The position numbers and the translations under genes are program-made. A stretch of DNA of 64,000 nucleotides from Bacteroidales bacterium. GTDB taxonomy: Bacteria; Bacteroidota; Bacteroidia; Bacteroidales; UBA932. The stretch spans positions 1-64,000 of the forward strand of contig JAFQGK010000015.1 of the NCBI GenBank assembly GCA_017398335.1, given 5' to 3'. Under the pieces are notes generated by a model, which was given only the letters and a program-made list of their open reading frames with translations, was not told the DNA's origin and did not search any database. Shown here piece by piece: positions 45,489 to 51,231 of the stretch (the first letter of the stretch is position 1; the number at the start of each line of letters is the position of its first letter).

Positions 45489-46844
45489 ATGGGAGCATTC
45501 CACGCATATGATATAAGGGGAGTCTATAATGTGGACTTTGACAAGGAAGTAGCCTACAAGGTAGGATATTTCCTTCCGGAACTTCTTTCAGCAGAAAAGG
45601 TGCTTGTGGGAAGAGATGCACGCGTGTCGTCGGATGAGATACACGAATGGCTTCTGAAAGGTATTACCGATGCAGGAGCGGATGTGTATGATGCAGGTCT
45701 CTGCACCACTCCGATGGTATATTTCGGCACTGCCTTCTATGGTTTCAAGGCGTCGGTGCAGATTACGGCTTCGCACAATCCTGCCGAGTACAACGGTATG
45801 AAGGTATCAAGGGAGAATGCCCTCCCTGTGGGATATGACACAGGTCTGGGACAGATAAAGGAATGGATAGAGACAGGCAGGGAATGCCCTGTGGCTGAAA
45901 AGCGTGGCGAGGTACATCAGATTGACGTCCGCAAGGACTATCTGCCTTTCCTTCTCAAGTACAAGGAAGACTGGTCAGGACTGAAGATCGCGATGGACGT
46001 GTCTAACGGCATGGCTTCGCTTTTTGTGCATGAGATTTTCGGCGATGAGCCGGCATATATATATGACAATATGGACGGCACCTTCCCTAACCATGAACCG
46101 AATCCTCTGGTACCGAAGAATGTCGTTGACCTTCAGATGCTTGTAGCTGCAACAAAGGCCGACATCGGAATCATCTTTGACGGAGACGCGGACCGCGTGA
46201 TGTTCGTGGACGAAAACAGCCGTTTCATATCTCCTGACCTTATGATTGCCGTTCTGGGACATTATTTCCTGGAAGAGAGGGGAGAGAAGGGATATATCCA
46301 TCAGGATATCAGAAGCTCGAAGGCTGTGGGCGAATACCTTGCGCCGATGGGAGGAGTGATGAATACCTGGAGGGTAGGACGTGCATATGCGGCGCTGAAG
46401 CTCCGTGAGCTTGACGGAGTGTATGGTGGCGAACTTGCCGGTCATTACTATTTCCGTGATTTCTTCTATTCTGACAGCGGACTTCTTGCAGCGATACTCA
46501 TCGTCAACGTAGTCGCCAGGATGAAGGCTCAGGGCGTGTCACTCAGCCAGCTGATCGGCCGCATAGAGAAGTATCAGAATTCAGGAGAGATAAACTTCCG
46601 TCTGGAGGACAAGAAGGGCGCCATGGATGCTGTCCGTGACTATTTCATGCAGAACGAGAAGTCTACGGCATATATGGATTTTGACGGCTACCGCGTGGAA
46701 TTCCCGGACTGGTGGTTCAATATAAGGCCTTCAAATACAGAGCCTTATCTCAGATTCATATGCGAGGCGACCTCGAAGGAACTGCTTGATGAAAAGGTGG
46801 CGAAGGTAAGGGAGATACTAACTGATCAGTTCGGAGCGAAGTAA
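45489..46844 (+). CDS. Phosphomannomutase/phosphoglucomutase family protein
   Basis: A 451-residue alpha-D-phosphohexomutase from the ATG at 45489. It shows the start FHAYDIRGVYN, the phosphoserine loop TASHNPAEYNGMK (about 95-107), the metal loop DGDADRVMFVDE, the sugar-binding GGELAGHYYF and the C-terminal phosphate-binding RPSNTEPYLR. It interconverts hexose 1- and 6-phosphates for cell-surface sugars. Sequence does not separate mannose, glucose or glucosamine use. The longer frame inside def is rejected; the next gene overlaps the stop by 1 nt. Confidence 0.93.
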   Translation: MGAFHAYDIRGVYNVDFDKEVAYKVGYFLPELLSAEKVLVGRDARVSSDEIHEWLLKGITDAGADVYDAGLCTTPMVYFGTAFYGFKASVQITASHNPAEYNGMKVSRENALPVGYDTGLGQIKEWIETGRECPVAEKRGEVHQIDVRKDYLPFLLKYKEDWSGLKIAMDVSNGMASLFVHEIFGDEPAYIYDNMDGTFPNHEPNPLVPKNVVDLQMLVAATKADIGIIFDGDADRVMFVDENSRFISPDLMIAVLGHYFLEERGEKGYIHQDIRSSKAVGEYLAPMGGVMNTWRVGRAYAALKLRELDGVYGGELAGHYYFRDFFYSDSGLLAAILIVNVVARMKAQGVSLSQLIGRIEKYQNSGEINFRLEDKKGAMDAVRDYFMQNEKSTAYMDFDGYRVEFPDWWFNIRPSNTEPYLRFICEATSKELLDEKVAKVREILTDQFGAK

Positions 46845-47866
46845 TGAGGAAGGCAGGAATATTTGTTTTGCTGCAGGCTTTGCTCTTCCTGTGTGCAGAC
46901 GGCCTTCTGGCCCGCGACTTGTCCCGGATTGACACGGTAAGGACACATCTGGTGATACCGCGTCCGGCACTTCAGCCTCTTAAGTCGCTCGTGACGTCGG
47001 ATTCGGATCCCATCGACACACTTTCCACTGCGAATGAGTATATAAAGGTTGTCCTTTTTGCCGATAATACATGGCAGTATATCAAGCTGCCGGGCTATCA
47101 GGCTGAGAAGGATGTGTTTGAAAAGAACTGGGACACAGTCGCTTCAAACCCATATAAGCTGGAGCAGAAGGACCTGCCATATTCATGGTCCATCTGGCTG
47201 GTGGACAGTCTTGACCAGTATCACTGCCCGTTCCAGGGAGACATTCATCCGAGGGGCAAGTTCGGCCCGCGCAGAGGACGTCGCCATCAGGGAGTGGACA
47301 TCCCGCTCAAGACAGGAGACCCTATATATGCGACCTTCACCGGTAAGGTCAGAATGTCAAAATATCTCGGGGGATACGGAAACGTCGTTGTCATAAGACA
47401 CGAGAACGGTATAGAGACCTTCCACGGTCATCTTTCCAAGAGAATGGTGGAAGTGGGAGACTGGGTGAATGCAGGCGATGTCATCGGACTCGGTGGCTCG
47501 ACAGGACGTTCGACAGGCCCTCACCTTCATTTCGAGACGAGATATCAGGGCTTTGCCTTTGACCCTCAATGGCTTATAGATTTCAAGACCGGTGACCTCA
47601 GACATCGTCTCTTCGTCCTGAAGAAGAAGTATTTCAGCCAGTACAGCAACTACGAGCAGGATTTCGAGGACGAATGGAAGAATGAGGAGGAGGACAAGAA
47701 GGAGGATGCCGAACGCGCGGCGATGAGATGGCATACCATCAAGTCAGGTGATACCCTCGGCCGTATCGCCATCAACAACGGCACGACAGTCTCTGCCCTC
47801 TGCAAGCTGAATGGCATCACCCCGAAGACGGTCCTGAAGATCGGCCGCCGCATAAGAGTACGCTGA
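46844..47866 (+). CDS. M23 metallopeptidase with LysM domain
   Basis: A 340-residue exported protein (signal near QALLFLCADGLLA). The M23 domain at about 140-240 shows HQGVDIPLKTGDPIYATFTGKV, FHGHLSKR and the final HLHFETRY. After an acidic linker (DFEDEWKNEEEDKKEDAE) a C-terminal LysM domain (HTIKSGDTLGRIAINNGTTVSALCKLNGI) gives peptidoglycan binding. It is probably a cell-wall endopeptidase involved in growth or division. A strong hairpin follows. Confidence 0.92.
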   Translation: MRKAGIFVLLQALLFLCADGLLARDLSRIDTVRTHLVIPRPALQPLKSLVTSDSDPIDTLSTANEYIKVVLFADNTWQYIKLPGYQAEKDVFEKNWDTVASNPYKLEQKDLPYSWSIWLVDSLDQYHCPFQGDIHPRGKFGPRRGRRHQGVDIPLKTGDPIYATFTGKVRMSKYLGGYGNVVVIRHENGIETFHGHLSKRMVEVGDWVNAGDVIGLGGSTGRSTGPHLHFETRYQGFAFDPQWLIDFKTGDLRHRLFVLKKKYFSQYSNYEQDFEDEWKNEEEDKKEDAERAAMRWHTIKSGDTLGRIAINNGTTVSALCKLNGITPKTVLKIGRRIRVR

Positions 47867-47955: not shown

Positions 47956-49263
47956 TTATTCCCACTCGATGGTTGCAGATGGCTTCGGCGAGAGGTCGTA
48001 GCATACGCGGTTCACATTCGGAACCTCTGCAAGGATACGGTCTGTGATCTTGAGGAGGACAGGCCATTCGATCTGCTCTATGCTTGCTGTCATTGCGTCG
48101 ATAGTGTTGACGGCGCGGATGATTACAGGCCAGTCGTATGAACGTGCGTTGTTGCGTACGCCGACAGACTTGAAGTCAGGAACCACTGTGAAATACTGCC
48201 AAACCTTCTTGTCAAGGCCTGCCTTTGCGAACTCCTCACGAAGGATTGCATCAGCCTCGCGGAGCGCTTCAAGACGGTCGCGGGTGATGGCTCCGAGGCA
48301 GCGTACTCCGAGGCCCGGACCTGGGAACGGCTGACGGTAAACCATTTCGTAAGGAAGACCGAGCTCAACACCGCATGCGCGTACCTCATCCTTGAAGAGC
48401 TGCTTCAAAGGCTCGACAAGTTCGAACTGAAGGTCTTCAGGAAGACCTCCTACGTTGTGGTGCGACTTCACCATCTTCGCGGTCTTTGTGCCGCTCTCCA
48501 CGATGTCCGGATAGATTGTGCCCTGACCGAGGAAGTCGATTCCGTCAAGCTTGCGTGCCTCTTCCTCGAACACGCGGATGAATTCTCCGCCGATGATCTT
48601 TCTCTTCTGCTCAGGGTCTGCGACGCCTTCGAGGAGACCGAGGAAACGGTCAGTCGCATCAACATATATAAGGTTTGCGCTAAGCTGGTTGCGGAATACT
48701 TCCACAACGTTTTCAGACTCTCCCTTGCGCATAAGTCCGTGGTTTACGTGAACGCAGACAAGGTTGTCTCCGATAGCCTTGAGAAGGAGGGCTGCAACTA
48801 CCGAGCTGTCAACTCCGCCTGAAAGTGCAAGAAGAACCTTTCTGTCTCCGACCTGCTTGCGCACGAGCTCCACCTGGTCTGCAACGAAGTTCTTCATGTT
48901 CCAGTTGGCTTCTGCCTTGCAGGTGTCGAATACGAAGCCTTTGACTGCCTCCTTTACTGCAGCTTCGTCGTTGCCGAACTGTGCGAGCTTGACTTCGCAG
49001 AGTGCCTTTTCATGACCGGCTGCCATTACAGGATACCCGGCTTCATAAATTTCAGGAAGAACGTCGATGGCAACACCGTCGATGACATTGTTCGGGCCAC
49101 CGTTGATGATGATACCTTTAACATTTGGAAGTGCCTTGAGTTCGGCTGCTGTAATGTCGTGCGGGTAGATTTCACTGTACACACCCAATGCACGGACCGC
49201 TCTGGCCACCACTGTGTTTTCGTGGCTGCCAAGGTCGAGAATGACGATCATGTCCTGTTTCAT
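47956..49263 (-). CDS. guaA: GMP synthase with a degenerate glutaminase domain
   Basis: A 435-residue protein; usual GuaA is about 510-525. The ATP-pyrophosphatase half is intact: LLALSGGVDSSV (P-loop), IGGEFIRVFEEEA, LGQGTIYPDIVES, KSHHNVGGLP, the FPGPGLGVR motif and the end KPSATIEWE. The N-terminal class I glutaminase is shortened by about 75 residues. It starts normally (ILDLGSHENTVVARAVRALGVY, then IINGGPNNV), but the GVCYG nucleophile cysteine and the later His-Pro-Glu are gone. It can still make GMP from XMP, but probably needs free ammonia or a separate glutaminase. No frameshift is seen. Confidence 0.9.
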   Translation of the reverse strand: MKQDMIVILDLGSHENTVVARAVRALGVYSEIYPHDITAAELKALPNVKGIIINGGPNNVIDGVAIDVLPEIYEAGYPVMAAGHEKALCEVKLAQFGNDEAAVKEAVKGFVFDTCKAEANWNMKNFVADQVELVRKQVGDRKVLLALSGGVDSSVVAALLLKAIGDNLVCVHVNHGLMRKGESENVVEVFRNQLSANLIYVDATDRFLGLLEGVADPEQKRKIIGGEFIRVFEEEARKLDGIDFLGQGTIYPDIVESGTKTAKMVKSHHNVGGLPEDLQFELVEPLKQLFKDEVRACGVELGLPYEMVYRQPFPGPGLGVRCLGAITRDRLEALREADAILREEFAKAGLDKKVWQYFTVVPDFKSVGVRNNARSYDWPVIIRAVNTIDAMTASIEQIEWPVLLKITDRILAEVPNVNRVCYDLSPKPSATIEWE

Positions 49264-49422: not shown

Positions 49423-51231
49423 ATGCAGGATATCAGAAACATCGCTATCATCGCCCATGTCGATCATGGTAAGACGACACTTGTGGACAGGATGATTTAT
49501 CAGGCGCGTCAGGCGCGTGAGCAGGAGAAGCTGGGAGAGCTGATCCTTGACAATAATGACCTCGAGAGAGAAAGAGGTATCACGATTCTCGCAAAGAACG
49601 TATCTGTAGTGTATAAAGGGGTGAAAATCAATGTGATCGACACTCCGGGCCATAGTGATTTCGGTGGTGAAGTGGAGCGTGTCCTTAATATGGCTGATGG
49701 AGTCATCCTTCTTGTGGATGCATTCGAGGGATGTATGCCTCAGACAAGATTCGTGCTTCAGAAAGCCATTGAGATGGGCAAGAAGCCGGTGCTTGTCATC
49801 AACAAGGTGGATAAGCTCAACTGCCGTCCGGAAGAAGTGCAGGAGGAGGTCTTTGACCTCATGTTCTCTTTGGGTGCTACTGAGGACCAGCTTGATTTCC
49901 GTACCGTATACGGAAGTGCCAAGCAGGGATGGATGTCGCATGACTGGAAGCAGCCTACAAATGATATAACAGCGCTCCTGGATACTATTCTTGAGGTTAT
50001 CCCTTCTCCTGAGATTGTGGAAGGAACTCCTCAGATGCTGATCTCATCATTGGAGTATTCTCCATACGTAGGCCGAATCGCTGTCGGTCGCGTGACCAGA
50101 GGAAGCCTTCAGGCAGGAATGAACATAACTCTCTGCAAGAGATATGACATACAGCAGAAGCAGAAGATCAAGGAGCTTATGATATTCGACGGTCTCGGAA
50201 AATCAAAGACTGACGAGGTTCAGTGTGGTGATATCTGTGCTGTAGTAGGTCTTGAGGGCTTCGAGATTGGAGATACGATCGCAGACTTTGAGAATCCGGA
50301 GGCTCTTCCTCCGATCGAAGTAGATGAGCCTACGATGAGCATGCTCTTCTGTATCAATAATTCACCGTTCTTCGGAAAGGAAGGAAAGTTCGTGACTTCA
50401 CGCCACCTCAAGGAGCGTCTTGAGAAGGAGCTCGAGAAGAATCTTGCTCTCAGGGTGAAACCGGGCCCTAATGCCGATTCTTTCGTTGTATATGGTCGTG
50501 GTGTCCTTCATCTTTCAGTGCTCATCGAGACAATGCGTCGCGAAGGTTTCGAGCTTCAGGTAGGACAGCCTAAGGTGCTTGACAAGGTAATCGGAGGTCA
50601 GCGCTGTGAGCCTATCGAGATGCTTACAATCGATCTTCCGGAGGAGTTTGTCGGCAGGGCGATCGAGATGGTTACCCGCAGGAAAGGTGCCTTGATCCAG
50701 ATGGAAGGCAGGGGGGACAGGACCCATCTTGAGTTCGATATCCCTTCACGCGGCCTTATGGGATTGAGAAGCAACCTGCTTACGGCGACCCAGGGAGAGG
50801 CTGTAGTCGCTCACCGTCTTAAGGGATACGAGCCTTATAAGGGTGATATCGAGCGCCGTACGAATGGTTCTCTCGTGTCGTTGGAGACCGGTCTGTCCGT
50901 GGCATATTCTATGGACAAGCTTCAGGACCGCGGACGTTTCTTCATCGAACCCGGAGTGGAAATATACGAGGGTCAGGTGGTAGGAGAGCACACCCGCGAC
51001 CGCGATCTCAACATCAATATATGCAAGACCAAGAAACTGACAAACATGCGTGCTTCCGGCAGCGATGACAAGGTTATGCTCCCTCCTCCTGTAGTCTTTT
51101 CTCTGGAAGAGGCTCTCGAGTATATCCAGGAAGATGAGCTTGTCGAGGTTACTCCGAAGTCTATGCGTTTAAGGAAGATTATCCTCAATGAACTTGAGCG
51201 CAAAAGAAAAAGTTCGGATATAAATTGCTAA
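49423..51231 (+). CDS. typA: Translational GTPase TypA/BipA
   Basis: A 602-residue translation-factor GTPase of normal length. The G domain has AHVDHGKTTLVDRM (G1), RGITI (G2), DTPGHSDFGGEVERV (G3) and INKVDK (G4), followed by domain II, EF-G-like domain III and the C-terminal BipA-specific domain with MVTRRKGALIQMEGRGDR and NMRASGSDDKVMLPPP. BipA acts on the ribosome under stress and during assembly. It is divergent from guaA, and DUF177 follows after 51 nt with its own promoter. Confidence 0.96.
   Translation: MQDIRNIAIIAHVDHGKTTLVDRMIYQARQAREQEKLGELILDNNDLERERGITILAKNVSVVYKGVKINVIDTPGHSDFGGEVERVLNMADGVILLVDAFEGCMPQTRFVLQKAIEMGKKPVLVINKVDKLNCRPEEVQEEVFDLMFSLGATEDQLDFRTVYGSAKQGWMSHDWKQPTNDITALLDTILEVIPSPEIVEGTPQMLISSLEYSPYVGRIAVGRVTRGSLQAGMNITLCKRYDIQQKQKIKELMIFDGLGKSKTDEVQCGDICAVVGLEGFEIGDTIADFENPEALPPIEVDEPTMSMLFCINNSPFFGKEGKFVTSRHLKERLEKELEKNLALRVKPGPNADSFVVYGRGVLHLSVLIETMRREGFELQVGQPKVLDKVIGGQRCEPIEMLTIDLPEEFVGRAIEMVTRRKGALIQMEGRGDRTHLEFDIPSRGLMGLRSNLLTATQGEAVVAHRLKGYEPYKGDIERRTNGSLVSLETGLSVAYSMDKLQDRGRFFIEPGVEIYEGQVVGEHTRDRDLNINICKTKKLTNMRASGSDDKVMLPPPVVFSLEEALEYIQEDELVEVTPKSMRLRKIILNELERKRKSSDINC

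Follow-up and report, generated by a model that had tools for sequence, protein, structure and literature searches.

A GuaA without a glutaminase core in gut Bacteroidales is a probable ammonia-dependent GMP synthetase

The gene on the minus strand at positions 47956..49263 of the window, by which we mean the whole 64-kb stretch of Bacteroidales DNA that was analysed, encodes a GMP synthetase (GuaA) of 435 residues that lacks the catalytic core of the glutaminase domain. We consider it very probable that this short GuaA is a functional, ammonia-dependent enzyme, where the use of ammonia is what we infer from its architecture, its conservation and the gene content of the genomes that carry it.

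The open reading frame, profile searches and an alignment with Escherichia coli GuaA divide the protein into three parts. Residues 1-80 (49024..49263, minus strand) are a remnant of the class-I glutaminase fold including the helix alpha-1 segment; the Pfam profile PF00117 (GATase) matches residues 7-80 with only positions 1-76 of its 190. Residues 81-106 (48946..49023, minus strand) are, by alignment, a short linker that replaces about 105 E. coli residues bearing the catalytic Cys, His and Glu. Residues 107-435 (47959..48945, minus strand) comprise, by profiles and alignment, the complete ATP-pyrophosphatase and dimerisation domains with the motifs SGGVDSS, DxxES, KSHHN, KDEVR and the C-terminal KPSATIEWE. 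The GMP_synt_C domain is complete (PF00958, 127 bits against a Pfam cut-off of 27), and both the synthetase profile TIGR00884 (458 bits, cut-off 339) and the two-domain GuaA profile NF000848 (545 bits, cut-off 400) were passed, whereas the glutaminase profile TIGR00888 scored 50 bits against a cut-off of 172, so that a complete class-I glutaminase domain is missing. The protein does not belong to NadE either, with 42.5 bits against a cut-off of 255 for NF010587. The match to E. coli GuaA stops at E. coli residue 87 (residue 84 of the window protein) and restarts at residue 193 (106), and the columns of Cys86, His181 and Glu183, which we take to be the glutaminase triad in E. coli numbering, are all gaps. 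Such a triad of Cys, His and Glu is characteristic of the glutaminase (PMC10526850). The preliminary description of this gene as a guaA without a glutaminase core was thus right in its coordinates, in the complete synthetase half and C-terminus, and in the continuous frame, which runs open from ATG to the stop with zero internal stops; it was also right about the missing triad, while the loss it put at about 75 residues comes to about 84 net in the E. coli alignment. The gene is flanked by the divergent typA (49423..51231, plus strand) and on the other side by a convergent gene (46844..47866, plus strand) that is presumably M23-peptidase-like; the synteny of the latter is kept in part of the named loci. 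A search of the 64-kb window with E. coli GuaB as the query gave zero matches.

Formation of adenyl-XMP and binding of XMP need DxxES, KSHH and a C-terminal Lys, Arg and Glu (PMC10526850). All of them are invariant in our 36-row alignment, so the residues for adenylation and XMP binding are in place. We propose that the synthetase half would adenylate XMP and that the amide nitrogen would be taken from free ammonia entering from solution, not from channelled glutamine nitrogen. An enzyme run on ammonia would be workable because the isolated ATPPase domain of Plasmodium falciparum GMP synthetase makes GMP from ammonia, with kcat reduced 5.9-fold and Km for NH4Cl reduced 2.7-fold relative to the whole enzyme (PMC4673825). 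The first 80 residues may serve as a compact cap over the synthetase interface, devoid of a catalytic centre. They retain helix alpha-1, the element that docks on alpha-11 and alpha-12 of the synthetase in two-domain enzymes. A basic residue of alpha-1 pairs with acidic residues of alpha-12 in the P. falciparum enzyme (PMC10526850); the equivalents by alignment, R21 and D292/E293, are invariant in the 36 rows, and so is R24.

The short form is a conserved gene. In a scan of species genomes, the best 80 of 591 related stretches all cover residues 1-435 at 89-98% identity. Among these best 80, 79 are titled MAG, many of them from ruminant cecum, colon or rectum, and one is the cultured strain Bacteroides fluxus YIT 12057. 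The predominance of metagenome assemblies among the named records (79/80) is what would favour an assembly or sequencing artefact or a recent pseudogene, an explanation to which we assign a negligible probability, since the identical deletion recurs in 80 records including a cultured strain and the dN/dS ratios of about 0.03-0.05 speak against it. We read the 73 loci with ungapped 435-codon genes, omitting the seven with 436 codons, and all 73 had an open frame followed by a stop. For residues 1-80, 81-106 and 107-435, dN/dS was about 0.03, 0.115 and 0.05, respectively; these are rough ratios from 269 pairs with pS of 0.1-0.6, in which dS is near saturation and which are non-independent as they share loci. 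The remnant and the synthetase are under purifying selection, and the ratios argue against neutral decay. Assembly error, named beforehand as a possible refutation, was thereby excluded by the 80 like records together with this selection. Erosion of the domain in the sense of decay was not supported either: the short form is a single clade with a selected remnant and was probably acquired ready-made by the window lineage.

Profile searches of the window's own genome (86% complete, where a missed gene is possible) returned the short guaA alone with PF00958, and only the short guaA and CarA with PF00117. The search for a second guaA or a stand-alone glutaminase that had been advised was thus carried out in this genome and found neither a second guaA nor a stand-alone glutaminase of the GuaA type; a second full-length guaA was rejected on the PF00958 result. 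In nine of 28 genomes of our choosing (G000, which is the window's own, G026, G032, G021, G024, G178, G349, G350 and G414), PF00958 matches no gene other than the short form; these nine are 58-99% complete, three of them 96-99% (G178 and G349 99%, G350 96%). G007 holds a second short-form fragment of 49 residues and G024, at the end of a contig, a 21-residue piece of another short form, hence some of these assemblies are mixed or two-copy. Two of the named loci are the same as sampled genomes (L035 is G026 and L096 is G349), so that the scan of species genomes and the order and genus counts given below overlap and are non-independent.

When 19 genomes were searched with TIGR00888, the cut-off was not reached in any of the 14 that have no GuaA but a glutaminase-less one, and the five that passed it were exactly those with a full-length GuaA. 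Four genomes (G004, G006, G009 and G011, 72-85% complete) had no PF00117 match at all. A separate GuaA-type glutaminase subunit of the archaeal kind was not found, and a GuaA-type glutaminase acting in trans was rejected on the own-genome PF00117 search and the 0/14 result. Because the glutaminase core is gone and neither a second guaA nor a GuaA-type glutaminase was found, the short form would depend on free ammonia; this part of the preliminary description gained support, with the use of ammonia itself still read from gene content. Ammonia could instead be supplied by an unrecognised glutaminase in trans, either non-homologous or another class-I enzyme docking on the synthetase, as the synthetase keeps the docking motif KDEVR (for its role, PMC10526850). 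We regard this as unlikely in view of the 14 genomes without a GuaA-type glutaminase over the cut-off and the four without any PF00117 match; moreover, the proposed cap would fill the docking site, and in a second glutaminase-less clade, which has no remnant, the docking Asp equivalent to D292 is Tyr in 5/5 proteins.

A full-length GuaA accompanies the short form in five genomes (G124, G226, G314, G141 and G325) and in B. fluxus. In G124, G314, G141, G325 and B. fluxus, the two genes lie in tandem on the same strand, 35-128 bp from stop to start. Among the 80 named loci, the fetched flank contained a full-length GuaA in three (L059, L101 and L111), with at least 1.8 kb upstream available in 61 of the 73 loci read. 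In tandem lineages, the two proteins would possibly offer two nitrogen sources for one step. Across families, the amount of change in residues 1-105, a stretch that includes the linker, was 0.4 to 4 times that in the synthetase. Because they change fastest in the tandem families (0.135 versus 0.033 for the synthetase between G141 and G124), the cap is less constrained there. The close same-strand arrangement would also suit a heterodimer, in which the short protein pairs with full-length GuaA by way of the C-terminal dimer face and receives its ammonia from that partner, and dimerisation does reside in the synthetase half (PMC4673825). The short form nevertheless stands alone in nine genomes, where a full-length partner is not needed, and we give the heterodimer little credence. 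Less probable still, in our estimate, is that the short protein acts on another acceptor substrate and is not the GMP synthetase of the cell. The long branch (0.98) separating it from full-length GuaA, the replaced second proline of the C-terminal KPP in all 30 short forms of the tree and its position as a paralogue next to full-length GuaA in tandem genomes would fit such a change of substrate, but the XMP-contact residues are invariant, no other GuaA was found in the nine genomes, and in the window lineage the gene occupies the native guaA place.

A GMP synthetase run on ammonia thus remains our preferred reading, and the survey of how widely it occurs, also advised beforehand, found the short form in 39 of the 400 genomes sampled from the window's genus, conceivably GTDB Cryptobacteroides, in 10 of 393 of the order, spread over five families, and in 2 of 395 of the phylum at E <= 1e-120, namely the own genome and G141. 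A synthetase-only relative that starts near residue 124 and is 65-81% identical occurs in 99 of the 400 genus genomes. Both genus counts were made by hand, the 99 being re-counted and including rows cut by contig ends; other GuaA genes were checked in part of these 99 genomes. For a synthetase tree built by a quick method, we used 18 of the 80 named short loci together with genome loci, keeping one row per distinct sequence that reaches residue 435 and starts at or before residue 126. In the resulting 75-row tree, a branch with support of 100 separates a set of 30 short forms and nine synthetase-only proteins, itself on a long branch, from E. coli and the full-length rows. By this tree, the short form is one clade in Bacteroidales.

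Five more synthetase-only proteins (from G035, G023, G018, G004 and G011) make up a clade of their own on the side of the full-length rows, and the starred branches force two changes to the synthetase-only state. The second, independent form shows an Asp-to-Tyr change in KDEVR (L197, L198 and L199, that is, G023, G018 and G011). In G023, G018, G011, G006 and G009, the synthetase-only gene lies directly behind a gene that is presumably guaB-like, judged by how its start reads. The motif KPP near the C-terminus is present in 31/31 full-length rows, E. coli included, and its second proline is replaced in 30/30 short forms; 13 of the 14 synthetase-only proteins, and 43 of all 44 glutaminase-less rows, are without KPP. 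Loss of the second proline is thus a possible signature of glutaminase-less forms. In the window protein, the site is K427-S429 in the C-terminal loop (47977-47985). KDEVR was scored in 23 of the 30 short forms, as an earlier VFKNQ stretch was matched first in the other seven, and is found in 36/36 rows of the alignment; a KSHH/KAHH match is absent in one of the 14 synthetase-only rows.

The short GuaA of the window's family is 85-92% identical to that of four other families, whereas TypA is 66-70% identical; the comparison covers 10 of 14 genomes and has TypA as the sole marker for the window's family. Because of this difference, the data point to horizontal transfer of the short form into the window lineage, with direction and donor being what we infer. 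Within families, dN of the short form is 1.0-1.9 times that of TypA. Between the families of the tandem genomes, the synthetase of full-length GuaA is 73-82% identical, and that of the adjoining short protein 91-96%. Among themselves, the families f25, f28 and f88 show no excess of short-form identity over TypA, and vertical descent is possible there. Some mobile elements integrate at the 3' end of guaA (PMC5704250), and we considered whether short guaA might have spread with such elements. An Rfam search of ten fetched guaA loci, chosen from outside the window, detected only one sRNA and one tRNA, each of them at a distance from guaA.

A full-length guaA occupies the same place beside typA in G404 and G061 of the same genus and in G162, G260 and G341 of the same family. 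G033, also of the genus, carries a pair of full-length and synthetase-only genes at a distance of about 10 kb from typA. In the remaining families that have the short form, typA lies in another place. A 47-row TypA tree divides the genomes with a short guaA beside typA into two groups, and the starred branches force two changes; G024 and G007 were scored in this state from fragments at contig ends. The first group comprises 24 rows including the window, next to G404 and G061, and the second L073, L074, L076, L077, L092 and L112, next to G260 and G341, with TypA about 80% identical to that of the window. Because each group stands next to relatives with a full-length guaA, the simplest account would be that short guaA took the place of the full-length gene at this locus on two separate occasions. 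In the window lineage, the transferred short form would have replaced the native full-length guaA beside typA and become the only GMP synthetase.

In CarA of the own genome (L001, G000:C65), the nucleophile Cys is Gly and the catalytic His is Asn, and Cys to Gly with His to Asn or Ala is seen in all three short-form genomes in which CarA was found and read (G000, G021 and G026); no CarA was seen in G007, G024 and G032. We read 21 CarA-like proteins. Both residues are kept in 14 of them, namely in 13 whose genomes have a full-length GuaA and in that of G035; the last counts against a link, as G035 has a synthetase-only GuaA. Both residues are present in E. coli CarA and lost in the three short-form genomes and in G018, which has a synthetase-only GuaA. 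G003b and G036, two divergent CarA-like proteins whose genomes carry a full-length GuaA as well, have lost the Cys; G001b has lost the His. At the loci L220 and L221 (G003 and G036), the divergent CarA-like proteins have Gly for Cys and keep the His. At G404:C51 (L213), a TAA lies within the CarA match according to the profile search, although a 361-residue frame is open there.

CTP synthase (PF06418) was found in none of the six short-form genomes of the genus (own, G007, G021, G024, G026 and G032; 58-91% complete). In the seven genus genomes whose sole GuaA is synthetase-only, CTP synthase is present in one, seen as a 67-position fragment in another and absent from five; it is absent in 4 of the other 24 genus genomes. 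Against a tight link, it is lacking in G404, a 100% complete genome with full-length GuaA, and pyrG is present in the short-form genomes of other families, including the f25 and f28 genomes that have only the short form. PurF (Cys after the propeptide) and PurL (Cys, His and Glu), read from about 239 kb of further own-genome sequence, look glutamine-competent; a general loss of glutamine-dependent amidation is rejected on account of these retained catalytic residues, and by the sequences the shift away from glutamine is selective. With a CarA devoid of glutaminase residues, carbamoyl phosphate would be made from ammonia in the window lineage too. The idea of a metabolic adaptation has become more credible given the inactive CarA motifs in the same genome. 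On balance, we lean slightly towards a joint reading in which, in this gut Bacteroidales lineage, free ammonia would have taken over from glutamine in several steps of nucleotide amidation: a GMP synthetase confined to ammonia and spreading horizontally would have displaced the glutamine-using one in situ, on at least two occasions at the typA locus, CarA would have lost its Cys and His, and CTP synthase would have been dropped, while a second, unrelated glutaminase-less GuaA arose in the genus.

With two-domain GuaA such as the E. coli enzyme (1GPM), the short form shares the synthetase and dimerisation domains, the P-loop, the lid and the C-terminal loop, but it has no Cys-His-Glu, its glutaminase is cut to about 80 residues and the second proline of KPP is replaced. 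Like subunit B of the archaeal two-subunit GMP synthetase (2DPL, 6JP9), it is a synthetase chain without a fused active glutaminase; unlike that type, it has an inactive remnant at its N-terminus, and our searches found no separate GuaA-type glutaminase to go with it. Single-domain NadE is a related synthetase that uses free ammonia in vivo, with losses of one of its forms and with transfers (PMC3376133), albeit with a different substrate. Vertebrate CPS1 keeps its amidotransferase domain, with the catalytic Cys replaced (Ser in human), and uses ammonia (PMC4655335). It parallels the CarA of the window genome, possibly the bacterial counterpart of this ammonia-using enzyme, and is no relative of the short GuaA, which lost most of the domain.

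A table from 2012 lists GMP synthetase as 100% fused, with none lacking the glutaminase, over 730 genomes (PMC3376133), and a 2023 review describes a two-domain enzyme for bacteria and eukaryotes and a two-subunit one for many archaea (PMC10526850). A GMP synthetase tree of 2022 admitted a sequence only if its alignment covered 80% or more of the canonical domains and, because of this filter, could not have shown the short form (PMC9312489). In our searches of open-access literature, we recognised no printed account of a glutaminase-less bacterial GMP synthetase. Our best reading is that the short protein is GuaA by descent, would depend on ammonia and falls outside the two published types. 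If this is true, a stand-alone bacterial form without glutaminase, common within a single gut genus, would be a third type of GMP synthetase, and free ammonia could be the in vivo donor for GMP. The tandem pairs of full-length and short genes would provide a test case for the passage from a channelled to an unchannelled enzyme, and the presence of short guaA in a genome could be taken as a marker that a gut bacterium depends on ammonia.
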